DNA from: Candidatus Cloacimonadota bacterium
GTDB taxonomy: Bacteria; Cloacimonadota; Cloacimonadia; Cloacimonadales; Cloacimonadaceae
Assembly: GCA_012839325.1 (NCBI GenBank)
Contig: DUNQ01000029.1
Location: 1-64,000 of the forward strand
DNA: 64,000 nucleotides
Reading direction: 5' to 3'
In this document: positions 3 through 18,182 of the stretch, in pieces
Layout: the number at the start of each line of letters is the position of its first letter
How positions within the stretch are numbered: position 1 is the stretch's first letter
Notes under the pieces: model-generated
Database searches by the model: none
Told to the model about the DNA's origin: nothing
Seen by the model: the letters and a program-made list of their open reading frames with translations, nothing else
Translations under genes and position numbers: made by a program

Positions 3-1679
3 GTAGAACTCAGCTGGAACGCCCCCGATCCTGAAAACAACTTAGGTTATCAAATCTGGCGCTTAAGCGATGCAGACCAGGATGACGAGACCCTGTGGAG
101 CCTAATCACTCCTGAAACCATCAGCACTACCAGCTTCACCGATAATGGCTGGACAGCGCTCGCAGACGGCGATTACCTCTGGGCAACCAAGGCCATATAC
201 GCCGCCGGCGTGATCTCCGAGCCCATCTTCTCCGATGCGCTTACCAAGTCCAATGCCGACGGCATCTTAGCCGGATTCATCCTTGACGAAGCAGATGATA
301 GCCCGATAATAGGCGCCCTCATCACAGTTGACGATGAACACACCGCAATCTCAGACGACACCGGAGCCTACACGCTCAACCTCGTCCCCGGCCCTCACAC
401 AGTAATCGTTAGCCATACCTACTACGAAGACAGCGATGAGCTAAGCTTCGTAATCCTCCCCGACGAGACCACCAACCTCAATATCGAGCTTGAAAGCTTA
501 CCACAGGTAATGGTCAGCGGCAGGATAATCGGCAGCGACACCGGCGAAGGCCTCGCAGGAGTTGATATAGAAGTCACCGGCTTCATGGACTACAACTTCC
601 AAACCGACGTAGCAGGACAGTTCAGCGTTCTCGCCTATGCAAACCACACTTATGATGTAACCGCTTCAAAACCGGGCTATGAAAGCCTCAGCGGCGAAGT
701 AGTTCTCGGCAGCACCCCTCTGGATGTGGGCGACTTTATGCTAATGGAGATCGCCTATATGCCCACGAACGCAGTGGCTGAGATCAATCCCATCCACACC
801 GCTGTCACCATCAACTGGAACGCTCCCGTGCCTGACCATGCAGATATCCTCTCCTTGAGCGACATCATCCATGGCAAGGCACAGAACAGCCAATACACCC
901 AGAACAGTCGTGCAGCAATAGGCTACAGCGTCTGGCGCCTAAGCGAAGGTGAGGAAGACGACGAAAGCGCCTGGAACCTGCTCACAGCTGAGCCAATAGC
1001 CTCTACTCACTATACAGACGAAGATTGGCTGGCTCTCGACGATGGCAGCTACCTCTGGGCGATCAAAGCCGTATATAACGAAGGAATCATCTCCGACGCT
1101 CTCTTCTCTAACGAACTCGAAAAAGAAGAGATGTATGGCACGGTCTTCGGTTATGTGAAGAACACAAATGACGACACTCCCATCAGCGGCGTGCTCGTCT
1201 CCATCGACGCCGAGATCAATACCCTCACCGACGAAAGCGGCTACTACAGCATCTCGCTGCTTGCCGGTGAATACACCATCACGGCATCTCACGATGAATA
1301 CACCACAGTCACAATAGAAGACATCATAATCACTGGCGGAGAAAGCCTTGAACTCGATATAGACATGGAGCCCACATCAAGCTCCGATCTCATCGAAGTT
1401 GCTCAAACCGAGCTCATGGCGAACTATCCCAACCCCTTCAACCCCGAGACAACCATTGCCTTCCACCTCAAGGATGCAGGCAGAGTAAGCATAAATATCT
1501 ACAACATGCGCGGTCAGCTGATCAGAAAGCTTGTTGATAGCGAAATGCTTGCCGGCGGTCACACGGTAGTTTGGGACGGACGCGATAACACAGGACGCAG
1601 CGTATCTTCCGGCACCTATCTCTACAGAATGCAATCCGGAAAGTACAGCTCCACCAAGAAGATGATCATGATGAAATAA
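3..1679 (+). CDS. Secreted modular protein with T9SS-type C-terminal domain (5' end missing)
   Basis: The reading frame is open to the left edge, so the N-terminus lies outside the window; 558 residues are visible. It is built from repeated modules. A fibronectin-III/adhesin-like stretch (SWNAPDPE near the left edge, then NWNAPVPD about 250 residues later) alternates with carboxypeptidase-regulatory-like beta folds (GYVKNTNDDTPISGVLVSID). The last ~85 residues form a FlgD-Ig/T9SS type A sorting-like domain, with YPNPFNPET, the NMRGQLI motif, WDGRDN and a basic KKMIMMK tail. Known proteins of this architecture are exported surface or extracellular proteins. The catalytic or adhesive function cannot be told because the N-terminal part is absent. 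A strong terminator follows the stop codon. Confidence 0.85.
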   Translation, partial: VELSWNAPDPENNLGYQIWRLSDADQDDETLWSLITPETISTTSFTDNGWTALADGDYLWATKAIYAAGVISEPIFSDALTKSNADGILAGFILDEADDSPIIGALITVDDEHTAISDDTGAYTLNLVPGPHTVIVSHTYYEDSDELSFVILPDETTNLNIELESLPQVMVSGRIIGSDTGEGLAGVDIEVTGFMDYNFQTDVAGQFSVLAYANHTYDVTASKPGYESLSGEVVLGSTPLDVGDFMLMEIAYMPTNAVAEINPIHTAVTINWNAPVPDHADILSLSDIIHGKAQNSQYTQNSRAAIGYSVWRLSEGEEDDESAWNLLTAEPIASTHYTDEDWLALDDGSYLWAIKAVYNEGIISDALFSNELEKEEMYGTVFGYVKNTNDDTPISGVLVSIDAEINTLTDESGYYSISLLAGEYTITASHDEYTTVTIEDIIITGGESLELDIDMEPTSSSDLIEVAQTELMANYPNPFNPETTIAFHLKDAGRVSINIYNMRGQLIRKLVDSEMLAGGHTVVWDGRDNTGRSVSSGTYLYRMQSGKYSSTKKMIMMK

Positions 1680-2096: not shown

Positions 2097-4916
2097 ATGA
2101 AAACAAGTTGCAGGGTGCCAAGCCTGATTCTCTTGGTGATGTTTATTTTAAGCGTCGGACTAAGTCTCGCAGATGCCAGCGATTACAGTTCCATCTTTGC
2201 CGGAGATCTTGCTGTTTATTTTGACGGTGAGACAATTATCTATGCCGAGGCGCAGATCATAGAGCCTCAAGATACCAACTACTTTGAAGAAATAACTTCT
2301 GTAAACTTACATTACAGTTTTGACTTAGGTGAAAACTGGAATCAACATCAAATACCTGCACCCACAGACGAAACTTGGACTCACAAACCCGTACTCTGCG
2401 ATTTTGATGGCTCTCTTGTGCTTGCGATAGGCAATGCGCGCTTTCTTCTCAGTTTTTCAGAAGATGTTTTGCTGGCTGAAGAATTGCCCGATGCCGATTT
2501 CGTGCTCGATACCGATTTAACTCCCTATCCCTTCATGCGCGACGGTGAGGAACATCTTTTCAAGGTAAATCAACCCTACCCTGATCGCCTTCAATATCAG
2601 TTTACCAAAGATGGAATCACTGACATACGCAATCCGCTTTATGGATATTACTACGATACCTATAAAACCATGAATAACGGGCTTATAGAATGGGGGGTTG
2701 GCGGTGAGGTAAATGCTCCTGTCTGCACAAGACACGATTTTTATGTAAGACAATTTAACAATTATCAAGGAGTGTTCAACGCTCCCGTCATCTGCGGTGG
2801 AGATCTTTTAACAACTTTTATTAACTTAGACCCTGACGATGTGTTTTTAGGCGGAGCCTACGATAATATTGAGTTTGCCGGCATAAGCGGTAGCAATCCG
2901 GTGCGGGAAACCGGCTTTCATATCAATTATAATACTCCCGATAGAACCATAGTCTTTCTCGATGTCCAAGGCGCAGAAATCACCTGTCTCCTGGGCACTC
3001 TTTCCCTGCCAAGAAGAGTGAATGCAGATGTTTATTATCCCTATCCGCCACATCCCGACCAAGCCCCGCTTTATACCAATGTCTATACGGTTCGTGATAC
3101 TGTGTGGACGCCCCTTGATATCTCTTCTGCTCAAATCAAAAACCTCTTTGTAGATGGCGAGCTTTGGTTGAAAGGTGATTTTAGTGGTCATCATATTCTT
3201 AGCGCCAGCGGGGATATCAAGCTCATCGGCGATATTACGCTATCCAATACCGTCCCCGGCGATGATGTGAATACAAATACTGAGGATTCAGTTCACTTAA
3301 TCGGCGAGAGAAATGTGATGATTGGTTATGGTTATAAACACCCGATTACAAATGAGCGCATCCATCCTTTTTGCTGTGCAGATAGTGATCCATGTTATAT
3401 CTATGCAAATATATATGCTTTGGGAAAAGAGCAGCGTACCGGGCTCTTCACCTTTGAATATCAGCATCCTCATCCTTCCGTTCCGGCATTTTATGATTTT
3501 GACTATCCTTCAGGTCAGGTTACTTACCATGATAATGTGGATATTCATCGCTATAGATATCCTCCCACAGCTACGGAGCCCTGGCCTATGAGCCTCGATT
3601 TACCATATTACAATCCGCTATGGCCGGAAGCTCAGCCTTATGGTGAAAGAGGCAAATTGCTCGTGAAAGGTAATGTTTTTCAAAATAGATACGGATATCT
3701 GCACCGCAGTGGAAATGATAGTCAATATCCTTCCAATAACGGAGTTTGGGATGTGGAAAACGATATGTGTGGCGGTCCCATTAATACACCTCCATACAAC
3801 GACTTCTATCCGGGCACTTTAGCCACCAGACCCTATCCCGGTGCTGCCGGCTTTGGAAGCGGCTATAAATATGAAATTACTCCGGACCTACGTTTTAATG
3901 AAATAAATACATCCATCTTTAGCTATGTTTTCGATCACGGGATAAACCTTGTAAATCAAGAGGGGATAATCCTGCCCACGATAAATGAGAAGGTGGTAAC
4001 CACTAAAGCAACGCAGAAAAAGATCTTTGCCAAGAGCGAAAACAGATATGCCTTTGCCCACAACAACAGCATTCTCTATGACGATGGCACCGGTAATCTT
4101 CAAGACCTCACCCAGCTCAACAGCTGGTATATGCCCGGGCACATCAATGATCGCTATAAGATCGTGGATATGGTGTTTTCACCTATGAACACGCTTGCTA
4201 TACTGGCTTCTTATAACAATGATCGTGGTCTTGGACTCATGCTCATCAATCTTGGAGATATGAGCTTCCAAGATATAAAGTCATTCAATTCCGGGCATGA
4301 AATTACCAGTGCTTCTCTTACAAAAACTATTCGTAACACGCTACATTTAGCTTATGTAAGCAACAACCAACTCTTTGTAAATATGATTTGGTGGGGCGGT
4401 GTGGGCAGTGACCCCGTATATGGGTGGCACTGTGAGCCTTATGGTTTAGTCGATAATTACGTGCCGGATAATTGCTCTATCAGCTTCAATATTATGTTGG
4501 AGTATTCTAATGGTATCTTCCCGATTGTGCTATTTGAAAATACCTCCGGCTTACCTTATTCCGGCTGGGGAAATGTGAGCTTTAAGAATTATTATGGATA
4601 TGTTTCAAATGAAGACGAGCTCATCCCGAGTGTGAAGGACTTTGCCCTCAGCTGCTATCCAAATCCTGTGCGCAGCCTCGTTCAGCTCAAGTTAGACACT
4701 CCGCTGCCCACAGAGCATCACGAAGTGGAAATCTATAACCTGCGCGGACAAAAGGTTAACATCATCACCGATACCGGCAAAAAGAGCAACACCGGCTTTG
4801 AATACGATTGGAACCTAAAAGATGTAAATGATAGAAAGGTATCTTCCGGCATCTATTTCATCCGCATAAAAGTAGATGGAAAGACCAAGATAAGCAAGAA
4901 GATTACAGTGTTATAA
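2097..4916 (+). CDS. Large secreted protein with T9SS-type sorting domain (paralogue 1)
   Basis: This is a 939-residue protein of unknown function. A clear signal peptide covers residues 1-27 (basic MKTSCR, hydrophobic core ending in LADA). The mature part is rich in aromatic residues and turns and looks beta-rich; I recognise no enzyme motif. From about residue 850 there is a T9SS/FlgD-like C-terminal domain (SCYPNPVRS, NLRGQKV, SSGIYFIRIK, final KKITVL). An AAGGAG ribosome site lies 9 bp before the ATG. The next gene encodes a close paralogue with the same order of segments, so this is a recent tandem duplication. Secretion and surface display are inferred from the two terminal signals. Confidence 0.85.
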   Translation: MKTSCRVPSLILLVMFILSVGLSLADASDYSSIFAGDLAVYFDGETIIYAEAQIIEPQDTNYFEEITSVNLHYSFDLGENWNQHQIPAPTDETWTHKPVLCDFDGSLVLAIGNARFLLSFSEDVLLAEELPDADFVLDTDLTPYPFMRDGEEHLFKVNQPYPDRLQYQFTKDGITDIRNPLYGYYYDTYKTMNNGLIEWGVGGEVNAPVCTRHDFYVRQFNNYQGVFNAPVICGGDLLTTFINLDPDDVFLGGAYDNIEFAGISGSNPVRETGFHINYNTPDRTIVFLDVQGAEITCLLGTLSLPRRVNADVYYPYPPHPDQAPLYTNVYTVRDTVWTPLDISSAQIKNLFVDGELWLKGDFSGHHILSASGDIKLIGDITLSNTVPGDDVNTNTEDSVHLIGERNVMIGYGYKHPITNERIHPFCCADSDPCYIYANIYALGKEQRTGLFTFEYQHPHPSVPAFYDFDYPSGQVTYHDNVDIHRYRYPPTATEPWPMSLDLPYYNPLWPEAQPYGERGKLLVKGNVFQNRYGYLHRSGNDSQYPSNNGVWDVENDMCGGPINTPPYNDFYPGTLATRPYPGAAGFGSGYKYEITPDLRFNEINTSIFSYVFDHGINLVNQEGIILPTINEKVVTTKATQKKIFAKSENRYAFAHNNSILYDDGTGNLQDLTQLNSWYMPGHINDRYKIVDMVFSPMNTLAILASYNNDRGLGLMLINLGDMSFQDIKSFNSGHEITSASLTKTIRNTLHLAYVSNNQLFVNMIWWGGVGSDPVYGWHCEPYGLVDNYVPDNCSISFNIMLEYSNGIFPIVLFENTSGLPYSGWGNVSFKNYYGYVSNEDELIPSVKDFALSCYPNPVRSLVQLKLDTPLPTEHHEVEIYNLRGQKVNIITDTGKKSNTGFEYDWNLKDVNDRKVSSGIYFIRIKVDGKTKISKKITVL

Positions 4917-4984
4917 TTTTCTTTAGATAATTAATATGCAAAACCAGTAGATTAACAAAGCGAAATTAATATAAGGAGAGAAAA

Positions 4985-7852
4985 GTGAAAGTACGTTATC
5001 GGGTGCCAAGCCTGATTCTCTTGGCTATGTTTGTTTTAAGCGTTGGACTAAGTCTCGCAAATACCACCGACTACAGCTCCATATTTGCCGATGATCTTGC
5101 CATCTATTACGATAGCGAGATATTTATATATGCCGAGGCGCAGATCGCTGAGCCTCAAGATAATAACTATTTTGAAGAAATCACAGCAGTAAACTTACAT
5201 TACAGTTTTGACATGGGTGCAAACTGGGATCAACATATAATACCCGTTCCCGACAGTAAAACTTGGACACACAAGCCCGTGCTCAACGAGATCGAAGGCA
5301 ATATCGTGCTTTCCATAGGCAATACACGCTTCAATGTAATTCCCTCAGAAGGTGCTTTGTTAGTCCAAGAATTGCCCGATGCCGAATATATGCCGGGTAC
5401 AGATTTAGCCCCATATCCCTTCATGCGCAATAACGAAGAATACCTTTTCAAGGTAGATCAACCCTATCCTGAACGCATTCAATATGAATTCACCAAGGAT
5501 GGAACTGCCGACATCCGCAACATGCCTTACGGCGTTTTCTATGAGCAATTTAAGTCAATGAACGACACTACAGTTTTTTGGACTTTGCCCAATAGTTTAT
5601 CTGCTCCTGCTTGCAGTCGTGATAACTTCTTAATCCATTACTCCAACCTCTATCCCGGAATGTTTCAAGCTCCGGTAATCTGCAAAGGAGAAATGCAGTG
5701 CCCTGATGGCATTGACCAGAGCGAAATCTTTGAAAAAGGCTACCACGAAAAACAAGATTTTAATGGCATGAGCGGCGACAATCCGGTGCGTGCATACGGC
5801 ACAATTATCAATGGTCACGGCAACGCTCCTGATAGAACCATTATTTATCTCGATTACCAAGGCAATAACCTTACGGCAATGGAAGGCACCATTTTGACGC
5901 CAAGAAGAGTGGAAGTAGATGTCTATGACACCTATCCGCCCGATGCTTCCTCAACGCTACTTTACACAAATAGCTACACGGTTCAGGATACGCTTTGGTC
6001 TCCGTTTAGCATAAGTCCAGGGCAGAAAAATATCTTTGTAAATGCCGAGCTTTGGCTGAAAGGTAACTTTAGCGGTCATCACAATATAAGCGCAAGCAGG
6101 GATATCAAGATAATTGGAGATATCACCTTAGCCAATACCGCTGCCGGCGACGATATGAATACAAATAATGAGGATTCTGTAAACCTGATCAGCGAGAGAA
6201 ATGTGGTGATCGCCTACGGTTATAAAGATCCTATTACAAACGAGCGTATCCATCCATTCTGTCGTGCAGATGATGATCCCGCTTATATATATGCAAATAT
6301 CTATGCCATGGGCAATCAGCAGCGTACAGGGCTCTTCACCTTTGAATATCAGCATCCCCATCCTTCTACACCGGCGGCACTTATAGAGGAGGATGGTGAG
6401 CAAGTTCTCTATGAAAATATAGATATCCATCGCCGTAAATATCCTCCCACAGCTGCCGAGCCATGGCCTGCAAATCTCGATTTGCCATATTACAATCCCC
6501 TCTGGCCGGAAGCTAATCCCTATAAGGAAAGAGGTAAAATTATTGTGATGGGAAATGTATATCAAAATAGGAAAGGCTACGTGCATCGTAGTGGAAGTGA
6601 TAGCGAATACCCCTCCAATAGCGGAGTTTGGGATGTAGAGCTTGATATGTGTGGCGGGCCTATATCTGCGCCGCCAATAGAGGATCCCATTCTCGGTATC
6701 ACGATGCAAGCTCAGAACTATCCCGGCGCAAGCGGTACCGGAGCAGGCTATAAATATGAAATGTACCCGGATTTACGTCTATTCGAGTTAGCCGACCTTT
6801 ACGGAAATAACTCCTTCATCTTTAACCATATTTTCGATCACGGGATAAACATTGTAAACCAAGCCGGAGAGAGCCTTCCCATAAGGCATGAGAAGGTGAT
6901 AACTGCCAAAGCCACTCAGAAAAAGATCTTTGCAAAGCGTGGAAATAAACATGCCTTTGTCCACAATAACAGCATTATCTACGACGACGGCTCCGGATAC
7001 TTGAAAGACCTCACCCGGCTCAACTATTGGTATATCACTAAACGCTACAATCCAGATGATTCTTACAAGATCAGGGATATGATTCTTTCAGATGAGAACA
7101 CGCTTATTGTGCTGTTATCTTACACCGGCACCCACCACTATATTCTGGAAATGTTGCTCATCAATCTGCAGGATTTTACCTTTAGTAATATGGGGTCATC
7201 TTATTCCGAGCATGAATTCACCAGTGCCTCTCTTAGCACGAGACCTTCTTGGGGAGATGATGATGACTGTTTTTATGTTGCCTATGTGACTAATAGCGAA
7301 CTCTTTGTAAACAAGGCTTGGTGGGAAGCAGGTGATGACTGGGGAGAAGTTTATTACCATTGTTACCATATCCCATACACCTTACAAGACAATTCTGTGC
7401 CGGAAAATTGCTCTTTCAGCCTCAATGTTTCACCGGATACAGATAACACCTACTTCCCGGTTGTGCTATTTGAAGACACCTCCGGCATGCCTTATTCCGG
7501 CTGGGGAAATGTGAGTTTTAAGAACTATCACGGACATGTTTCAAATGAGGACGATCACATCCCGAGCGTGAAAGACTTTGCGCTCAGCTGCTATCCAAAT
7601 CCTGCGCGCAGCCTAATTCAGCTCAAGCTGGATACTCCGCTTCATACACAGCATCACGAAGTGGAGATCTATAACCTGCGCGGACAAAAGGTTAACAGCA
7701 TCACCGATACCGGCAAAAAGAGCAACACCGGCTTTGAATATGATTGGAACCTAAGAGATGCAAATAACAAAAAGGTCTCTTCCGGCATCTATTTCATTCG
7801 CGTGAAGGTAGATGGAAAGACCAAGATCAGCAAGAAGATTACAGTGCTTTGA
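4985..7852 (+). CDS. Large secreted protein with T9SS-type sorting domain (paralogue 2)
   Basis: This 955-residue paralogue follows the preceding gene after 68 bp. It starts with GTG behind an AAGGAGAG ribosome site. The signal peptide (MKVRYR, then a hydrophobic run ending in LSLAN) and the sorting domain (SCYPNPARS, NLRGQKV, SSGIYFIRVK, KKITVL) are almost the same as in its neighbour. The middle (for example the YPPTAAEPWP and HPHPS segments) is strongly conserved, while several loops differ by insertions. Identity is visibly highest over the last ~100 residues, as expected of a shared export signal. The function of the mature part is unknown. No terminator separates the two genes, so they are probably co-transcribed. 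Confidence 0.85.
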   Translation: MKVRYRVPSLILLAMFVLSVGLSLANTTDYSSIFADDLAIYYDSEIFIYAEAQIAEPQDNNYFEEITAVNLHYSFDMGANWDQHIIPVPDSKTWTHKPVLNEIEGNIVLSIGNTRFNVIPSEGALLVQELPDAEYMPGTDLAPYPFMRNNEEYLFKVDQPYPERIQYEFTKDGTADIRNMPYGVFYEQFKSMNDTTVFWTLPNSLSAPACSRDNFLIHYSNLYPGMFQAPVICKGEMQCPDGIDQSEIFEKGYHEKQDFNGMSGDNPVRAYGTIINGHGNAPDRTIIYLDYQGNNLTAMEGTILTPRRVEVDVYDTYPPDASSTLLYTNSYTVQDTLWSPFSISPGQKNIFVNAELWLKGNFSGHHNISASRDIKIIGDITLANTAAGDDMNTNNEDSVNLISERNVVIAYGYKDPITNERIHPFCRADDDPAYIYANIYAMGNQQRTGLFTFEYQHPHPSTPAALIEEDGEQVLYENIDIHRRKYPPTAAEPWPANLDLPYYNPLWPEANPYKERGKIIVMGNVYQNRKGYVHRSGSDSEYPSNSGVWDVELDMCGGPISAPPIEDPILGITMQAQNYPGASGTGAGYKYEMYPDLRLFELADLYGNNSFIFNHIFDHGINIVNQAGESLPIRHEKVITAKATQKKIFAKRGNKHAFVHNNSIIYDDGSGYLKDLTRLNYWYITKRYNPDDSYKIRDMILSDENTLIVLLSYTGTHHYILEMLLINLQDFTFSNMGSSYSEHEFTSASLSTRPSWGDDDDCFYVAYVTNSELFVNKAWWEAGDDWGEVYYHCYHIPYTLQDNSVPENCSFSLNVSPDTDNTYFPVVLFEDTSGMPYSGWGNVSFKNYHGHVSNEDDHIPSVKDFALSCYPNPARSLIQLKLDTPLHTQHHEVEIYNLRGQKVNSITDTGKKSNTGFEYDWNLRDANNKKVSSGIYFIRVKVDGKTKISKKITVL

Positions 7853-7944: not shown

Positions 7945-9279
7945 TTATTTGGTCTTGATTATTTTTCTGATGATACTATCATCCCCCTGCTTGGCACGCA
8001 GGAAATATATTGATGCCGGTAAAGCTCTACCGCTTTCGTCCCTTCCATCCCAAACACAGTTTTTACCTGAAAAGCCGACAAAACTTTTTAGCTTCTGACC
8101 TCTTAGATTAAATATATCGATATCAATGGCATCCACTGTTTTGCTTTCTGCAAAGATGTTGATCTCGTCCTTAAAAGGCTGTGGATACATGGATAAAGAG
8201 ATGGACGGTAGTGCCGGGGACGAAGCATCCTCAATCTCGGTGATATTGCCATAAGAATATTCTTTCAATTTATAGTTTAGAAATTCATTTTGGGCAATAA
8301 TAAAGGATTGCCAAATATCGCGGATAAGATTGCCGTTGTCGTCGTATTCATATATATGACGATAGTTTTCCTGCCAAAAATCATCGTCGTTTAAGGTGTT
8401 TAGCACTATATGATGATAACCCGAATCATAGTAATATTTGTTTTTATAAATAAGCTGAGAAGAATCCGAATAGATATATTCTTCCTTATAGTAAGGCAAC
8501 CAGATTTCATTATCATCCAAAGAATAGTCGATAATCTCTTTGATCTTGCCGCAATTTCTTTCGCCATCGAGAAATATTATGTTATAGATGTTTTCGCTGA
8601 GATGCCGGATATAATCGCGAGAGTCCGTCTCGTCATCCGGATAGTAGATATATTCGGTTTTATATTCTCTATCCACGGCAAACTCGCCGTCTATCACCCG
8701 ATGGGATTGGGCATAAAAATATTTTATTCGATTTTGAGAGTCCAGCTCCATCTGCACAGATCGTTCTTCAGAGCCCTCTTCATAGGTCTTGGATAAATGC
8801 AGTTCAAACTCATATTCAGAGAGGTAGTCTATTGTAATATCAATAGTGTAATCATTGGAATAGCCCATGCTGTAATTGAAGTCTGTGACCCTATTTTCAG
8901 AGTCATAAGTAATCTCGCCATGTTCCACATAAGGGTAATCATCCACGGGGACTGAAGTGAAGCTCGAAATAAGACGGTTTGTACCATAAGTAAATCTGAT
9001 GTCTTCAAAGAGTGTCCATGTTTCGGGATCGTACATCTTGTTATAACGTTCCAAGATCGCAAGCTCGGGCTTATGAATTACAATGGGATTGTATTGGAAA
9101 ACATATTTATAGATTTCTTTCCACCTGCCCGCCCATTGGCAAACTTTAATTTCTTGGAGCACGCTTATGTCGTCTTCTGTGTTAAAATAGGAAAAAGGCT
9201 TGCTCATGGCGCTTAAAATGAGAGCAGATGTCAGCATCAAGATTAGCAGGGTAAGGCTCAATATACTGCGGCTTTTCAT
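7945..9279 (-). CDS. Secreted protein with YD-like repeats and T9SS-type sorting domain
   Basis: The reading frame opens at 9417, but the ATG at 9279 is the likely start. It has an AAGGAGG site just upstream and begins a proper signal peptide (MKSRS, then a hydrophobic run ending in LSAMS). The result is a 444-residue protein. The middle holds loosely repeated Y-x-Y-D/E beta strands (EYDDNGNLIRDIW, EYIYSDSSQ) reminiscent of YD/RHS-type repeats. The last ~85 residues are a T9SS-like sorting domain (SMYPQPF, NLRGQKL, WDGRDESGR, SIYFLRAK). It is convergent with the paralogous pair and is the fourth cargo-like gene in a row. Its function beyond export is not recognisable. Confidence 0.82.
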   Translation of the reverse strand: MKSRSILSLTLLILMLTSALILSAMSKPFSYFNTEDDISVLQEIKVCQWAGRWKEIYKYVFQYNPIVIHKPELAILERYNKMYDPETWTLFEDIRFTYGTNRLISSFTSVPVDDYPYVEHGEITYDSENRVTDFNYSMGYSNDYTIDITIDYLSEYEFELHLSKTYEEGSEERSVQMELDSQNRIKYFYAQSHRVIDGEFAVDREYKTEYIYYPDDETDSRDYIRHLSENIYNIIFLDGERNCGKIKEIIDYSLDDNEIWLPYYKEEYIYSDSSQLIYKNKYYYDSGYHHIVLNTLNDDDFWQENYRHIYEYDDNGNLIRDIWQSFIIAQNEFLNYKLKEYSYGNITEIEDASSPALPSISLSMYPQPFKDEINIFAESKTVDAIDIDIFNLRGQKLKSFVGFSGKNCVWDGRDESGRALPASIYFLRAKQGDDSIIRKIIKTK

Positions 9280-9946
9280 GATATACCTCCTTCGGATATC
9301 ATTTTGAGGTTTGTTGTTTCTTGCCTTTTCTGAGGCGGGTTTGGCTTTCAAAGATGTGTTTTCAAATGAAAAGATTTGATTTGTACTGCATGGCAGCCGC
9401 CAATTTGAAATAAACAAGCACTAAAAGCCTGTAAACTTATGAGATTAACTATATATAGAGAATGCTTACTGTCAAGTTCAAATTTAAGTGCAGTATAAAT
9501 ATTTACACAGCTTGTGGAAATATATCGACTCAGCAGCTTCCCTTAAACGAAAACATAGCGCCGACATGCCCTAATTGCTTGCAGTAGAACAAACATTGCG
9601 CTTTAGATAATAAGTGATAAGTTAAGGGATATCGCTACATAGCTCTTTCCTGTATATTACAGGATCACAGAGATTTTGCCGATATTTACACCCGGCTATG
9701 TGATAGAAATATAATTAAATATGACGATAATCGCAGCCAAGAATAGCCAATAATTACGCATCAATAAATAAACATGAGAAAGGGAGCTATTCTTTGCATA
9801 AAACTTGACAGAAAACTAAGTCTTTTAATTCTTTGTGAAATGTAATTTTTGGACAGAAGGAATCTATTTGATTGTTTCGGTAGATGAATTCTGATAAGTG
9901 CTTAATTTAATCAGTTTTTTAAAAAAGCAAAGGCAGTTTTGTTGAT
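9280..9946. other. AT-rich intergenic region between divergent genes
   Basis: About 670 bp without a convincing gene on either strand. It holds the leader of the minus-strand secreted protein and, presumably, the promoter of the cyclase-like gene. A 15-bp dyad, CCTGTA-TAT-TACAGG, at 9649-9663 is the clearest structured site. A TTGACA hexamer at 9805-9810 has no good -10 partner. Nothing else could be assigned. Confidence 0.5.
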
Positions 9947-10969
9947 ATGATCAGATACACACCAGAGTTTATTTTACGGAAATATGAGGCGGGGCGGATG
10001 GGGGGTACTCTGCGCGGCTTTGTTTTGCTTTTAGACTTGGTGGATTTCACTCACATCGTGGAAAAGATGCAAATGTCCGGCTTACACGGCGTGGATTTAG
10101 TGGCTAAACTTTTGGACGACATTCAACAAATTCCCATCCGATCCATTTATAAACATGGCGGTTTTATCAATCTTTTTGTGGGAGATGCCATTTGCTGCAT
10201 ATTCGAGGGCGAGGACGCTCTTCCCATGCAAAAGACTATTGAGGAGATACGTGAGCATCTTGCCGAGCTCCCTTCTTATGAGGTCAATGACAGCATCATT
10301 CAGCCCGAAATGCGCGAAACGATCGCTTTCGGGGATATTGAATGGGGAATAATGAACACCGAGTATCAGAGCGAATATCTCTTTTTTGGCGAACCCTTGG
10401 CGGAACTCAATACACTCTCAAAAAAGAAGCTGCAATATTCCGCTACGCCTGCCGCACTCAGGCAGATAGAGCTTTCCGCAGACATTGAATGCAAAAGCCG
10501 ATACATACCCAAGCAAAGATTTTCCCTTACACTGCCGGATTCCTTAAAGGAAATAAGGACCCAATTCAATCCCATCAATCATAGAGGTATCTCGGTGGAT
10601 AACGAGGTGCGCCCCATCGTCGCCGTATTTGTAGATATCCATAATGCCAAACACAAATCACGCTGTATCTTAAACCTCAATCGTCTTGCTTATGAAAACG
10701 AAGGTTTTATCAATAAGATCGACTACACCGATAAAGGTGCGCAGGCTGTATTGATCTTCGGCGCTCCCAAAAGCAGCGGACGCAGCATCTCTCAGGCTTG
10801 TGAGTTTTCACTATCCTTTTTAGAGAGCGAGAAAACCATGGCAATAGGCATCAGCAGCGGATACAGCTATGTGGGCATGGTGGGAATAGGAGAAGTATCG
10901 GAATACACCGCCTTGGGGCTAACCGTGAATCACGCCTCTTTTCTTTCAACTCAGGCAAAAGAAGGCTAA
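9947..10969 (+). CDS. Class III adenylate/guanylate cyclase-like module (N-terminal part of a broken gene)
   Basis: This 340-residue piece has two cyclase homology domains in tandem. The first has LLLDLVDFTHIVEKM and FVGDAICCIFE. The second has VAVFVDIHNA, AVLIFGAP and the GISSGYSYVGMVG ... YTALGLTVNHASFL stretch typical of the family. In class III cyclases these give the metal-binding aspartates and the dimer interface, but several catalytic positions look degenerate, so activity is uncertain. The frame ends in TAA immediately before a region that continues the same protein in the same frame (10970-13117). The ribosome site is weak (AAGG about 12 bp before the ATG). Confidence 0.78.
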   Translation: MIRYTPEFILRKYEAGRMGGTLRGFVLLLDLVDFTHIVEKMQMSGLHGVDLVAKLLDDIQQIPIRSIYKHGGFINLFVGDAICCIFEGEDALPMQKTIEEIREHLAELPSYEVNDSIIQPEMRETIAFGDIEWGIMNTEYQSEYLFFGEPLAELNTLSKKKLQYSATPAALRQIELSADIECKSRYIPKQRFSLTLPDSLKEIRTQFNPINHRGISVDNEVRPIVAVFVDIHNAKHKSRCILNLNRLAYENEGFINKIDYTDKGAQAVLIFGAPKSSGRSISQACEFSLSFLESEKTMAIGISSGYSYVGMVGIGEVSEYTALGLTVNHASFLSTQAKEG

Positions 10970-13117
10970 ATACTCTGCGATGCAAATACTTTCAAACAGG
11001 CAAGCGGCGAATATCTTATCCGCCTTCATAGCGGCACCGAGAAAGCCTACCAAATTAAAGGACGCAAGAAAAAGCATGAGCTTACCTTCCAGAGCACCTT
11101 CGTGGGTAGGGAAAAGGAGCTTTCTTGCCTGAACACTCTCTTTGAATATGGACGTCTAAGGCGCGAAAACCACATAGTTTACATTCATGGACACGCGGGG
11201 CAGGGCAAGAGTCGCCTCGCCTGGGAATTCTATGAAAAAACCAAGAATGTAAACAAGATATTTCTTGCCGGATACAGGGAGACTCATTTCGGACTCTATG
11301 CGCTGCGCCAGCTGGTAGATTCATATTTTAAGATAGACGATAAGCTCACCAATGCCGAGGCCTTGGCAAACTATGAACAGATCCTATCTAAGCTGAACTG
11401 GCCAAAACAGGAAGATGAAGAGTTAAAACCCGCACTGGCAAGCTTTTTAGATATACAATACCCGGAAAGCGAGTTTGAGAGGGGAACGCCTCTTGAGCGT
11501 GAAAACCTCCAAAAAGAGGCATTTGTCGGCTTTCTTACCGCACTGATCAACGACTCAGAACTTTTGATATTCTTCGATGACATCCAGTGGTTGGACAAAG
11601 ATTTTGCAGACTATATGCGTAGCATACATATCAAGCAAACTCATGCCTCTTTTATAATTGCAACGAGCAGGTATCTCGATCAAGGGCACACATACGACCT
11701 CTTTCTTGAGGATTTTATCAAGCATGAAATACACTTGGAACAACTAAATGAAAAAGATTCCGCTCTGCTTTTGGAAGATATTATAGATAAAGAGATTAAA
11801 GAGCAGCCCATCTTGCAGGAGATCATCCAAAAATCCCAAGGAAATCCCCTGTTTTTAGAGCAATTGGGCTATAGCTATTTAGAGCATAGTTTTGCATATG
11901 AAGACGGAAAATCCCAACTCAATCAGGCAATATTCAATATCAGCGACGTTATCAACAGCCGTATAGACTGCCTCGGCAAGTCTCTGCAAAAGTGTCTCTA
12001 TTGCGCTGCGATCTTAGGCAACAATTTCAGCACCAATCTCCTTGCTTTCATGATGGAGAGAAGGCTGGATGAAGAGCTCAAGCGCGGCGTTCAAATGAGG
12101 CTCTGGAAAAAATATCGTGAAGGGATCTACTCTTTTGGACACATTCTGATTCGCGATGTGGTCTATGAAAGAATGCTCAGCAGCCAAGCGAAAGAGCTGC
12201 ATAAGATCGCCGCAGGTGCCATATCTTCATACTATGGCGGGGACCTGGGCGCACACATTGATGAGATTGCCTATCATCACGAAAAAAGCTGCAACCTTCC
12301 CCAAGCGGAAGCAGATTATTATAAGGCAGCACTTTATCACAGAAGAAAAAACAATTGGCGCAAAGCACTTTTATACCAAAGGAAATCAACTCTTTTGGCG
12401 GGAAAATATTTTGGATTCGGTAGTTCCAGGCATATCAGCCGTCTGTTTTGGCTGGGAATTATTTACCACTCCGCTCAACTCTATGATAAGGCGGAAGCTA
12501 TTTATAACATTACATTTAGAGCAAATACCGGACTCACCGGCGGGGATGAGATAAAGCTTTCCGGGGATATCAATAACCTCGGTAGATTGTATAAAGATAT
12601 GCAAAGATTTGATGAAGGGGAGATCCTGCTCAGACGCTCGCTGAGGATAGAGGCGATGGTAGCGCCGCGCAGCGCGAATGTGGCAGACAGGCTAAACAAT
12701 CTCAGTTCCCTGTTTCTCAAACGTGGTGATTTTAAGAAGGCTCTCGCCTATGCAAAGCTCGCTTACAAATATTTCACCTCTTGGCCGCATGTGAACTATG
12801 TGGAATATCATGCTTTGATGCGGCATAACTTGGGCAGCATCCACATTAAATTGGGCAATATTGAGCTTGCGGAAGAGATGATACGCCTTGCTATGAGCGA
12901 TTTTAGGCGCGTGCATCACAAAAACCATCCGCGCTATCTTTCCTGCGTTTCACGTTTGGGAGATATTTTCTTTATCAAAAAGGATTTTGAAGCCGCTTTA
13001 AAGTCCTATAAAGAAGCCTATCAGGGATATGTTTTTTATTTTAATAAAGACTTTCCTGCCTGCAAAATTCAGGAGAAAAATATAGCAAAAGTGCACGCTG
13101 CCGTGGCAGCTCTTTAG
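10970..13117 (+). pseudogene. AAA ATPase-TPR portion separated from its cyclase domain by an in-frame stop
   Basis: This stretch is in the same frame as the cyclase piece and continues it directly: ILCDANTFKQA follows KEG-stop, as in intact cyclase-ATPase proteins. No ATG, GTG or TTG occurs in frame until the GTG at 11102, which lies inside the conserved FVGREKEL motif, so that is not a credible natural start. Seen in order are an AAA_16-type ATPase with Walker A (GHAGQGKSR) and Walker B (LLIFFDDIQWLD), a helical region, then TPR-like repeats to the end (NNLGRLYKDMQRFDEGE, HNLGSIHIKLGNIELAE). The intact protein would be about 1,056 residues, a signalling ATPase of STAND-like type. A GCTGCC-GT-GGCAGC hairpin with a T-rich tail spans the stop codon and may terminate transcription. 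Confidence 0.75.
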
Positions 13118-13397: not shown

Positions 13398-13829
13398 GTG
13401 AGAAAATTATCTATCATAGCGCTGTTTCTTTGTTTCGGGATCGCTTTTGCAAATCCGAATAAAGCCATGCTATATTCCGCGCTCGTGCCCGGCGGGGGAC
13501 AGGTCTATAATGGCGCCTATCTCAAAGCTGGAGCGGTGGTTGGTGTGCAAAGTTTCTTGATCGCAAACACCATTATTCAGGATAACAAGGCGCGTGATGC
13601 AAAGAGACTCATGAAAGATGCCGATCCTGCCATGGAAGGCTTTTATAAGGCAGAATATGAAACTCATAAAGAAGCGCGAAATAGCAATATATGGTGGATT
13701 GGTGTCACTACTGTACTCAGCATGATAGATGCCTATGTAGATGCTCATTTGGTGGATTTTGAGGAGCGAAAAGAGGGATTGAGACTGCGCTTTGAAGATG
13801 ATATGCTCACCCTCAGATATAAGTTTTAG
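13398..13829 (+). CDS. DUF5683-like small exported/membrane protein
   Basis: This is a 143-residue protein starting with GTG, with TTGGAG 5 bp upstream. An N-terminal signal peptide (MRKLSIIALFLCFGIAFA) precedes a conserved-looking SALVPGGGQVYNGAYLKAG motif. A second hydrophobic stretch follows (NIWWIGVTTVLSMIDAYVDA), then a short charged beta tail. The PGGGQxYN plus IDAYVDAHL arrangement is that of the DUF5683 family, whose function is unknown but which is associated with the envelope in FCB bacteria. It stands alone between two repeat-bearing gaps. Confidence 0.7.
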   Translation: MRKLSIIALFLCFGIAFANPNKAMLYSALVPGGGQVYNGAYLKAGAVVGVQSFLIANTIIQDNKARDAKRLMKDADPAMEGFYKAEYETHKEARNSNIWWIGVTTVLSMIDAYVDAHLVDFEERKEGLRLRFEDDMLTLRYKF

Positions 13830-14072: not shown

Positions 14073-14687
14073 CTACTTATCACCCCTATCAAAATACTCA
14101 ATATTACAACCACATTCATCCCGAAAATCATAGTCCTTCTTAGGTGTCCGCCAGTCCCCATAATGCCTGGTAAGATATCCATCATAATCCTGTGGAATAT
14201 AATACTCTCTACCGTTAAATTCTCTTTTCACCCTCTCGTCCAAATGCCTTGCCTCACAAGATTGCAGGATGGGCTCATCACTTTGCACCACCCAATAGTA
14301 GCTGTCTCCATCTTTATATTTCACAAAGATATCCATGAGCTTCTCTTTTTTGAAGATGAAAAACCGGCGTGTATAAACCCGAAACAGGCGGAAAGATTTG
14401 GCAGGAATGGGGCCGCAATTCAAACGAGAAAACCTCAATCGGGTGAGATAACCCGCTTTATATAGCTTTTTTCTCAGCTCTTTCAGGCGCTCGCCATGAT
14501 TGGCAGGGATGGCGATATCCAAATCCGTATCCCAGGGAAGCAGTCTATCTTCCCGAACTATTCCCAATAAAGTGCCCGCATCCAAAGCATAAGGAATATC
14601 TGCTTCTTCCAAAATCTCACACACGTCTTCTAACATCTTTAAAGCATCTTGTAGGTTTTTACCGACCAGTTCTGCACTACCTGCCAT
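14073..14687 (-). CDS. LicD-family phosphotransferase-like protein
   Basis: This 204-residue protein has the LicD/nucleotidyltransferase core: YALDAGTLLGIVRE followed by LPWDTDLDIAIP (residues ~35-62), the GxxLGxxR...D-x-D arrangement that binds metal and nucleotide. LicD proteins move phosphocholine or similar phospho-groups from CDP-linked donors onto cell-surface glycans. Here the acceptor is unknown. The ribosome site is weak (GCAGGAA). It is followed 3' by family B hairpins. Four kb further right lie glycerol-phosphate polymer genes, so a role in surface-polymer decoration is a reasonable inference. Confidence 0.78.
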   Translation of the reverse strand: MAGSAELVGKNLQDALKMLEDVCEILEEADIPYALDAGTLLGIVREDRLLPWDTDLDIAIPANHGERLKELRKKLYKAGYLTRLRFSRLNCGPIPAKSFRLFRVYTRRFFIFKKEKLMDIFVKYKDGDSYYWVVQSDEPILQSCEARHLDERVKREFNGREYYIPQDYDGYLTRHYGDWRTPKKDYDFRDECGCNIEYFDRGDK

Positions 14688-14742: not shown

Positions 14743-15513
14743 TTAAATCTCAATTTCCACATAAACGGGGCAATGATCAGAACCCATGATATCCTGTCTG
14801 ATTCCCGCTTTTTTCACTATGTCAATATGTTCTTCATTGATAAAGAAATAGTCAATCCTCCAGCCTACGTTCCTGGCACGCGCGCCCGAGCGATAGCTCC
14901 ACCATGAATATTCATCCGGATCGGGATTGAATTTGCGGAAGGTATCCACCCAGCCGTGCTCAACAATCTTATCCAGCCAATCGCGCTCAATTCTGAGGAA
15001 TCCGGAGGTGTTTTCATTCGCTTTGGGACGAGCGAGATCGATGGGGAAGTGGGCTGTGTTATAGTCTCCGCCCACAAGCACTGCCTTGCCTTTGGCGCGC
15101 ATATCTTGCATCACTTCAAAGGCGCGGTCATAAAACCTGAGTTTATAGTCCAGCCTTTCCTCGCTTTGCTGTCCATTGGGGAAATAGACGTTAAATAAAA
15201 TGAAGTCTTCATATTCGGCGATATTTATCCTGCCTTCGATGTCAAACTCGTGGGTATCAAACTTTTCGCTGAAGTGCAAAGGCTTCTCTTTGCTGAATAT
15301 GGCGGTTCCGGAGTATCCCTTGCGCTCGCCGTGAGACCAATAGTCGTGATAGCCTTCCAGTTCGCTGATTTGCGGGGGAATCTGATGGGCTTGCAGCTTG
15401 GTTTCTTGTATGCCCAAGATGTCGGGGTTTTCGCGATTGATTATCTTTGTAAAGTCTTTATTTATGATGGCTCTCAAGCCGTTTACATTCCAGCTCCAAA
15501 TGGTAAGTTTCAT
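14743..15513 (-). CDS. xth: Exodeoxyribonuclease III / AP endonuclease
   Basis: This 256-residue member of the exonuclease-endonuclease-phosphatase family repairs abasic sites and trims 3' blocks in DNA base-excision repair. The full set of family motifs is visible: WNVNGLRA, GIQETK with the metal-binding Glu, GxxxYSGTAIFSK, VGGDYNTAH, WWSYR, and the catalytic GSDHCPVYVEI at the C-terminus. Length is normal for the family. It is divergent from the acyl-CoA ligase gene, with a ~200-bp shared upstream region that holds a TTGACA hexamer for this strand. The minus-strand neighbour (licD-like) follows 55 bp downstream. Confidence 0.95.
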   Translation of the reverse strand: MKLTIWSWNVNGLRAIINKDFTKIINRENPDILGIQETKLQAHQIPPQISELEGYHDYWSHGERKGYSGTAIFSKEKPLHFSEKFDTHEFDIEGRINIAEYEDFILFNVYFPNGQQSEERLDYKLRFYDRAFEVMQDMRAKGKAVLVGGDYNTAHFPIDLARPKANENTSGFLRIERDWLDKIVEHGWVDTFRKFNPDPDEYSWWSYRSGARARNVGWRIDYFFINEEHIDIVKKAGIRQDIMGSDHCPVYVEIEI

Positions 15514-15712
15514 TGTTTTCCTCTTTTATGGTCTATAATATTATCTTGATTCAATTCTTTATATTGCTTGCTTTTGTCAATCTTTCTTTGCTTTTACAAG
15601 ATTTATCTTTACTTAAAATAGGCTTTTATTATATTGCCTCAATCGTGCTTGATTGTCTGAAACATCAGGTTTTCATGCACTTTACCATATGAAAAACAAG
15701 GAGTTTGTCGTG

Positions 15713-17401
15713 ATGGAACCAACAAAATTTACTTTGAAGGCGATGATACAAAAAACCATCGCTACCCACGGTGAAAGACCGGCACTTTCCATGGTTGAAG
15801 GCGAGCCGATCAGCTACTCTCAACTCGGAGAATTGATTGATCAGGTTATCGTAATGTTGCGCGAATATGGAATTCGCAAAGGCGACAGAGTTGCTATTCT
15901 CTCCCAGAATATGCCTAATTGGGGAGTTGCTTATTTGGCGATCACGAGCATGGGTGCAGTCGTTGTTCCCATACTCGTGGATTTCCACGAAAATGAAATA
16001 AAGCAGATCCTCAGGCACAGCGGAGCGAAGGCTATCTTTGTATCCAACACGCATTACGATAAGGTTGGCTATGCCGATTTTGAACAGGATCCACAGATCT
16101 TTCTTACGGACAGTCTTAGTCCGGTGGATGCAAATCTCACAAAAGATAAGCTTGCGGAATATCTGCAGGATACGAAAAATGTCTTTTTGAGGTTCAGAAA
16201 CAAAGCCATGGAAGCGGTAGGTCTTATCGGCACCGAGCCGGATGAGGAAGATGTCGCAGCGATTATCTATACCTCGGGTACCACCGGGAACCCAAAGGGA
16301 GTGGTCTTGACGCATAGAAATCTCGTCAAGGACACCTGGCTCACGCTTCGGATCCAGGAAGTGGACGAATTTGATCGCTTGATCTCTGTTTTGCCGCTTT
16401 CACACACCTACGAATGCACCATAGGATTTCTTATCCCAATGCTCAAAGGTGCATGCGTCTTTTATTTAGATAAACCGCCCACAGCGAGGATTCTCATCCC
16501 TGCAATGCAGAAGATCAAGCCCACGATGATCCTCACCGTGCCGCTTATCATAGAAAAGATCTTTAAGTTGCAGGTATATCCTCAACTTAATGCAAATCCC
16601 GTGATGAGAAAGATGTATAAGTTCCCGCCAACGCGTAAAATGCTGCACAAGATCGCGGGCAAAAAGCTGATGAAAACCTTTGGCGGAGAGTTGCACTTCT
16701 TCGGCATCGGCGGCGCGCTTTTGTCCCACGATGTGGAGCGCTTTCTCAATGACGCATCCTTCCCTTATGCAATCGGTTATGGGCTTACGGAAACCTCTCC
16801 GCTCATCGCCGGATGCAGTCCTTCCGTGGTGAAATTCCGCTCTACCGGCGTGATCATCCCGGAGCTGGAAGTGCGCATAGCGGATGCAGATCCTAAGACC
16901 AAAATCGGTGAAATTCAGGTGAAAGGACCCACCGTCATGAAAGGATATTACAAAGATAAAGAGCTTACCGCTCAATCCTTTACCAAAGACGGATTCTTCC
17001 GCACGGGGGATCTGGGCTTGCTCACCAAAAAGAACTATCTCTATATCAAAGGCAGGATCAAGAATGTGATCATCGGCGCAAATGGTGATAACATCTATGC
17101 CGAAGAGCTGGAAGCAATGCTCAATGAAAATGATACCGTTCTTGAGTCTTTGGTCTATGAAAGCGAAGGGAATATCGTTGCGCGGGTTTACTTCAATCAG
17201 GATGTCTTGAAAAAGAAACACAATGTTTCGATGTTCAATGCGGTGCAATATGAAAAGTTCATGGAAAAACACCTCTCTGAATTGCGCGATAATCTGAATT
17301 CCAGTGTGTCTTCGTTCTCGCGTGTGCATAAGATCATCGAGCAAAAAGAACCCTTTGAAAAGACGCCTACGCAAAAGATTAAGAGATTCCTCTATCAGTA
17401 A
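15713..17401 (+). CDS. AMP-forming long-chain acyl-CoA synthetase family protein
   Basis: The frame is open from 15653, but the ATG at 15713 sits 9 bp after AAGGAG and gives a normal N-terminus (MEPTKFTLKAMIQK), so it is preferred; 562 residues. The adenylation motif IIYTSGTTGNPKGVVLTHRN, the YGLTETSP motif, the RTGDLG hinge region and a C-terminal IKNVIIGANGDNIY motif identify an ANL-superfamily acyl-CoA ligase, which activates fatty acids through acyl-AMP. The C-terminal ~60 residues are lysine-rich and longer than usual for bacterial FadD. It is followed after 16 bp by the NIF3-like gene. Substrate chain length cannot be read from the sequence. Confidence 0.9.
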   Translation: MEPTKFTLKAMIQKTIATHGERPALSMVEGEPISYSQLGELIDQVIVMLREYGIRKGDRVAILSQNMPNWGVAYLAITSMGAVVVPILVDFHENEIKQILRHSGAKAIFVSNTHYDKVGYADFEQDPQIFLTDSLSPVDANLTKDKLAEYLQDTKNVFLRFRNKAMEAVGLIGTEPDEEDVAAIIYTSGTTGNPKGVVLTHRNLVKDTWLTLRIQEVDEFDRLISVLPLSHTYECTIGFLIPMLKGACVFYLDKPPTARILIPAMQKIKPTMILTVPLIIEKIFKLQVYPQLNANPVMRKMYKFPPTRKMLHKIAGKKLMKTFGGELHFFGIGGALLSHDVERFLNDASFPYAIGYGLTETSPLIAGCSPSVVKFRSTGVIIPELEVRIADADPKTKIGEIQVKGPTVMKGYYKDKELTAQSFTKDGFFRTGDLGLLTKKNYLYIKGRIKNVIIGANGDNIYAEELEAMLNENDTVLESLVYESEGNIVARVYFNQDVLKKKHNVSMFNAVQYEKFMEKHLSELRDNLNSSVSSFSRVHKIIEQKEPFEKTPTQKIKRFLYQ

Positions 17402-17417: not shown

Positions 17418-18182
17418 GTGAAATTAAAAGATATATTGATACAGCTGGAAAGGTATGCGCCTAAAGAGCTTGCGCAGGATTGGGACAACGTTGGCTTGCT
17501 TATCGGTGAGCCGGATAGAGTCGCCAAAAAAGTGTTGATAGCGCTCGATGCGGGAGCCATGGGGATAGACTATGCCATCGAGCATGGATATGATCTCATT
17601 CTCACGCATCATCCGCTTATCTTTCAGCCGCTAAGAAATATCAGCAACCCCAATATAATCAAGATGATAGAGCATAAGATTGCCCTGATTAGCATGCATA
17701 CGAATTTTGATGCTGCAATAGGCGGGGTCAATCATGCGCTTGCCAATGCTTTGGATCTGGAAGTGATAGAGCCATTGGGAGATAGCGCTAAAAAGGAGCT
17801 GGGGCTTTTGTGTCATGCAGATTCGCCGCAAAACTTAAACGAGCTCTCCGAAAAGGTGAAGGAAAATCTCAACGTTCCGCGGCTGAGGCTGTGGACAGCG
17901 GGGCGAGATGATGATGCACGCTACCTACGCATTGCCATCTGTGGCGGAGCGGGGGGTGCATCGCTGGCTCTCGCCGAAGAGAAAGCAGATATCTTCATCA
18001 GCGGAGATCTTAGCTATCATAGCTTCTTAGATAGCAGTATTCCCATCATCGATGCAGGACATTTCTACACAGAATATCCGGCATTGGAGAAACTGGCTGA
18101 ATTGCTTATCCCTACGGGGCTTGAGAGCTTTGTTTTGCCTCAAAATCTGCACGAGTGGCACAACTTTATTCGTTATTACTAA
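17418..18182 (+). CDS. NIF3-family dinuclear metal protein (GTP cyclohydrolase I type 2 homologue)
   Basis: This 254-residue NIF3 protein begins at a GTG with TAGGAG 9 bp upstream. Metal-ligand motifs are present: LTHHPLIF near residue 65, MHTNFDAA, and the C-terminal GHFYTEYPALEKL stretch. Family members form hexameric toroids with a dinuclear metal site, and their physiological reaction is still disputed. In many genomes nif3 neighbours a zinc-ribbon gene that is absent here. It probably shares a transcript with the acyl-CoA ligase upstream. tRNA-Arg begins 62 bp after its stop. Confidence 0.9.
   Translation: MKLKDILIQLERYAPKELAQDWDNVGLLIGEPDRVAKKVLIALDAGAMGIDYAIEHGYDLILTHHPLIFQPLRNISNPNIIKMIEHKIALISMHTNFDAAIGGVNHALANALDLEVIEPLGDSAKKELGLLCHADSPQNLNELSEKVKENLNVPRLRLWTAGRDDDARYLRIAICGGAGGASLALAEEKADIFISGDLSYHSFLDSSIPIIDAGHFYTEYPALEKLAELLIPTGLESFVLPQNLHEWHNFIRYY

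Follow-up and report, generated by a model that had tools for sequence, protein, structure and literature searches.

The locus at 9947-13117 raises a simple question: does the TAA at 10967-10969 break a gene that was until recently intact, does it exist only in the consensus sequence, or is it put to use by the cell? We examined the reading frame, its domains, its relatives and the selection acting on it, in the 64,000-nt window (the whole stretch of DNA analysed here) and in further sequence of this Cloacimonadota metagenome-assembled genome.

An interrupted frame and its relatives

From the ATG at 9947 to the TAA at 13115-13117 on the forward strand, the TAA at 10967-10969 is the sole in-frame stop, flanked by AKEG before and ILCDANTF after, with stop-to-stop open lengths of 348 and 715 codons on its two sides. 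An earlier note had placed this TAA between KEG and ILCDANTF in an otherwise continuous frame with no usable start before FVGRE, and both statements are borne out. The first in-frame ATG, GTG or TTG past the stop is the GTG at 11102, 44 codons on, which is the Val codon of the FVGRE motif itself, and reading by eye revealed no evident ribosome site in the 16 bases 5' of it. The 44 codons in between are coding-like (score 7.5 in a codon-usage scan), and scans for promoters and terminators gave nothing attributable to the stop. The features of the locus and its neighbourhood are collected in Table 1.

Table 1. Features of the interrupted gene and flanking genes collinear with the nearest relative (L062)
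Feature	Position	Strand	Description
Upstream part, 340 aa	9947..10969	+	First cyclase homology domain plus the larger share of the second, up to the in-frame TAA
In-frame TAA	10967..10969	+	A residue stands at this column in 11/11 compared relatives
Start-less open coding-like stretch, 44 codons	10970..11101	+	Linker, preceded by the end of the second cyclase domain
NTPase (AAA_16) and TPR part	11099..13117	+	Begins at FVGRE, same frame as upstream part
Collinear gene	210-1679		
Collinear pair	2097-7852		
Collinear gene	13398-13829		
Collinear gene	14743-15513		
Collinear gene	15653-17401		
Collinear gene	17418-18182		

Homologues were sought in 59 genomes, our own included. The downstream part was matched in 49 of the 59 and the upstream part in 40, though many of these matches are probably paralogues or share single domains only. 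As relatives we took the 11 best-scoring loci outside the genome itself in the search with the downstream part. All 11 have one frame with zero inner stops, and three kinds of residue fill the column of the stop. The earlier note had proposed an alignment of orthologues around the stop and had named orthologues encoded as two genes as a refutation; a sense residue was found in every relative and a two-gene arrangement in none (0/11). One relative (L073) has no start codon where its aligned row begins. Among the rows listed, two others carry one inner stop each (a TGA in G029:C111 and a TAG in G040:C146), neither of them at the column of TAA 10967, as judged by query range.

The nearest relative is a gene of Cloacimonetes bacterium UBA5456 (L062, DIQS01000036.1; taken to be the same record as G001), with 73% identity in the upstream and 70% in the downstream part. 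It shares neighbours on both sides with our gene, and the flanking genes are collinear at 58-90% identity. Unlike the window copy, it is an uninterrupted frame of 1064 aa, with a linker 8 residues longer downstream of the stop. Both open stretches of the window align with this single frame with exactly one codon facing the stop, so the interruption is beyond chance. That sense codon differs from TAA at one of three positions, which supports the single-base origin previously suggested for the stop.

The tandem genes 2097-4916 (58%) and 4985-7852 (72%) correspond to a single L062 gene at 3036-5903. The gene at 7945-9417 on the reverse strand is without an L062 counterpart and has short C-terminal matches only, and that at 14073-14687, also on the reverse strand, has no match in the otherwise collinear L062 region. 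A plasmid search returned only relatives below 60% identity, and a search of the genus covered 12 genomes, one per species, our own included. Literature searches on class III cyclases, STAND proteins and Cloacimonetes gave nothing on this gene among the matches listed; a search on Cloacimonadota pseudogenes had a sole match, which concerns tRNAs, and one on truncated soluble adenylyl cyclase with tetratricopeptide and NTPase domains had no match.

Domain architecture and cyclase residues

In the downstream part Pfam recognised AAA_16 (1.2e-14) and TPR_12 (1.9e-22). The window's upstream part alone gave no Pfam match, and Guanylate_cyc was matched by 7 of the 12 rows comprising the window and its relatives. 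A profile of the upstream region built from 11 rows (the window, L062 and nine further relatives; L072 was left out) had as its best solved match human ADCY10 (PDB 4CM2/4CLF; E 8.3e-30), in two stretches, profile positions 21-184 and 224-394, that span both cyclase domains. A profile of whole proteins matched kinesin light chain TPRs and ADCY10. With two ADCY10-like cyclase stretches, AAA_16 and TPRs, the gene is, as read from its sequence, one for a soluble-adenylyl-cyclase (sAC)-like protein of the order CHD1-CHD2-AAA NTPase-TPR, which agrees with the cyclase-ATPase-TPR reading of the earlier note. The NTPase and TPR domains belong to the same polypeptide in the single frame of all 11 relatives; in the window they lie in frame but behind the TAA.

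ADCY10 resembles the cyclase part in its pair of cyclase homology domains, which follow one another in the same order, and a P-loop/STAND region has been predicted behind them in the full-length protein (PMC12802110). On the other hand, the window protein is bacterial, the best match of solved structure for its C-terminal TPRs is to the repeats of kinesin light chain, and the window copy is interrupted. Moreover, the window and its nearest relative are without the Arg of the CHD2 NxAxR motif.

In class III cyclases, CHD1 carries a pair of metal-binding Asp residues, and CHD2 an Asn and a transition-state Arg in NxAxR. D30 and D80, which we take to be the CHD1 Asp pair, are invariant in all 11 rows of the upstream profile and align to VDISGFT and GDA of ADCY10, while L072, outside the profile, differs at the first Asp. 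The window also keeps a CHD2 Lys. In NxAxR (10925-10945) the Asn is present and the Arg is replaced by F in the window and by S in L062; the Arg is present in 9 of the 11 relatives, L072 also differing. The missing Arg, as a sequence feature, weakens the case for an active enzyme and leaves the case for descent untouched. Because it is absent from both the window and L062, catalysis in this pair may already have been weak before the stop arose. For the uninterrupted tandem cyclase region in L062, a structure predicted from a two-row alignment had a mean pLDDT of 33.1 and was set aside.

By our own count on the printed alignment, the stop faces ADCY10 near residue 425 (the chain has 475), eight residues past the Arg of the NLAAR motif and with the last part of CHD2 still to come. 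The truncated product would thus be without the end of CHD2 and everything beyond, and the 340-aa product is probably inactive.

Selection on the two parts

Changes between the window and L062 by codon position number 56/56/157 upstream and 142/102/335 downstream, the third position being the most variable. Nei-Gojobori estimates of dN/dS are 0.184/1.319 (about 0.14) upstream and 0.183/1.768 (about 0.10) downstream, ratios that are rough because dS is large. These substitution patterns indicate constraint on both parts through most of their history since the divergence of window and L062. With four unanimous outgroups, the upstream part had 6 changes on the window branch vs 1 on the relative's branch (p 0.125), a hint of relaxation, and the downstream part 5 vs 6. 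Under a looser outgroup rule the counts were 20 on the window branch vs 25 on the relative's upstream, and 32 vs 57 downstream (p 0.011), the excess being on the relative's branch. FastTree branch lengths for window vs relative were 0.26 vs 0.18 upstream and 0.20 vs 0.27 downstream. Across these outgroup tests and trees, with parts and stringencies that disagree, no consistent acceleration or decay of the window copy was found. Since both sides are constrained and the window branch is without consistent acceleration, the change is either recent or an error.

Origin of the stop codon

We lean towards a real nonsense allele that arose by one recent change, either fixed or polymorphic among strains, although that the base is real is itself inferred. 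Neither half contains another stop or frameshift, the orthologues are intact (11/11) where this copy is interrupted, gene order is kept with L062, and TAA is the commonest ordinary stop of this genome. A single base change would have created the TAA in the sAC-like gene, and translation would end within the second cyclase domain, giving 340 residues and never reaching the NTPase and TPR part. The outcome would probably be a young loss-of-function allele, because translation ends inside CHD2 and the NTPase-TPR part is lost.

The sequence is explained just as well by an error of consensus or assembly. This reading, which also covers a minority strain's base entering the consensus, is a possibility that we take seriously while holding it the less probable; the gene would then be intact in the organism. 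The genome is a draft of 147 contigs, 94.86% complete and 3.28% contaminated, and the rest of the gene bears no consistent mark of decay. Internal stops are known to arise from assembly errors, and a published survey attributes many bacterial internal-stop pseudogenes to them (PMC11017572). Nonsense-type pseudogenes and their assembly-error look-alikes share with our gene a single internal stop and intact relatives, with no difference in kind. Against an error stands the isolation of the interruption. Same-frame neighbours were sought with a codon-usage scan that required at least 15 coding codons lacking a start downstream of the stop. In the window it picked out this TAA as the only interruption of its kind; a further 552,437 bases of this genome gave no other (so none besides it in 616,437 bases, window included), nor did 304,133 bases of G001, the nearest relative. 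This is weak evidence that does not tell a mutation from an error, and a handful may be missed, because the scan's sensitivity on simulated stops was 21% (638 of 3100). A laxer same-frame scan gave 20 neighbours, most of which read as antisense shadows or as adjacent genes that start within a few codons; under the stricter scan a single case is left in the window. Whether recent mutation or sequencing error, the event is an ordinary one.

It is improbable that the 340-aa cyclase is made on purpose without its NTPase-TPR part, like the short isoform of mammalian sAC. That isoform has both catalytic domains without the C-terminal regulatory region and exceeds the full-length form about 3.5-fold in specific activity (PMC12802110), and the window retains the CHD1 Asp residues and the CHD2 Lys. 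The parallel is loose, however, because CHD2 itself is cut here; moreover, the two parts are under similar constraint, and the CHD2 of the window and L062 is without the Arg of most relatives. More doubtful still is a short isoform that, freed from the NTPase-TPR regulator and with its CHD2 Arg already lost, would serve as a signalling or dimerisation partner of the genome's other class III cyclases.

Programmed readthrough, which had been offered earlier as one explanation, or the reading of TAA as sense, is very unlikely. The frame is constrained on both sides, but in the relatives the column is filled by residues and never by stops. Of 310 long frames in a sample of the genome, 178 end in TAA, the commonest stop, 99 in TGA and 33 in TAG. 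No stop-reading anticodon was found among 41 tRNAs (found with Rfam, typed with ARAGORN), though a tRNA could have been missed because the genome is 94.86% complete, and the 121 nt around the stop are no more stably folded as RNA than shuffled sequences (z 1.03). Separate translation of the downstream part by reinitiation is hardly credible either, as the constraint on that part is set against 44 codons without ATG, GTG or TTG, a first GTG that lies inside conserved FVGRE without an evident ribosome site, and the single frame of the relatives.

For annotation, the locus 9947-13117 should be entered as one interrupted gene and not as two; beyond this its significance is small. If the recent nonsense change that we favour is real, it would be a new loss affecting a signalling gene which a sister species keeps constrained, in a genome that retains two further genes recognised by Pfam as class III cyclases and three cNMP-binding proteins scoring above the cut-off.
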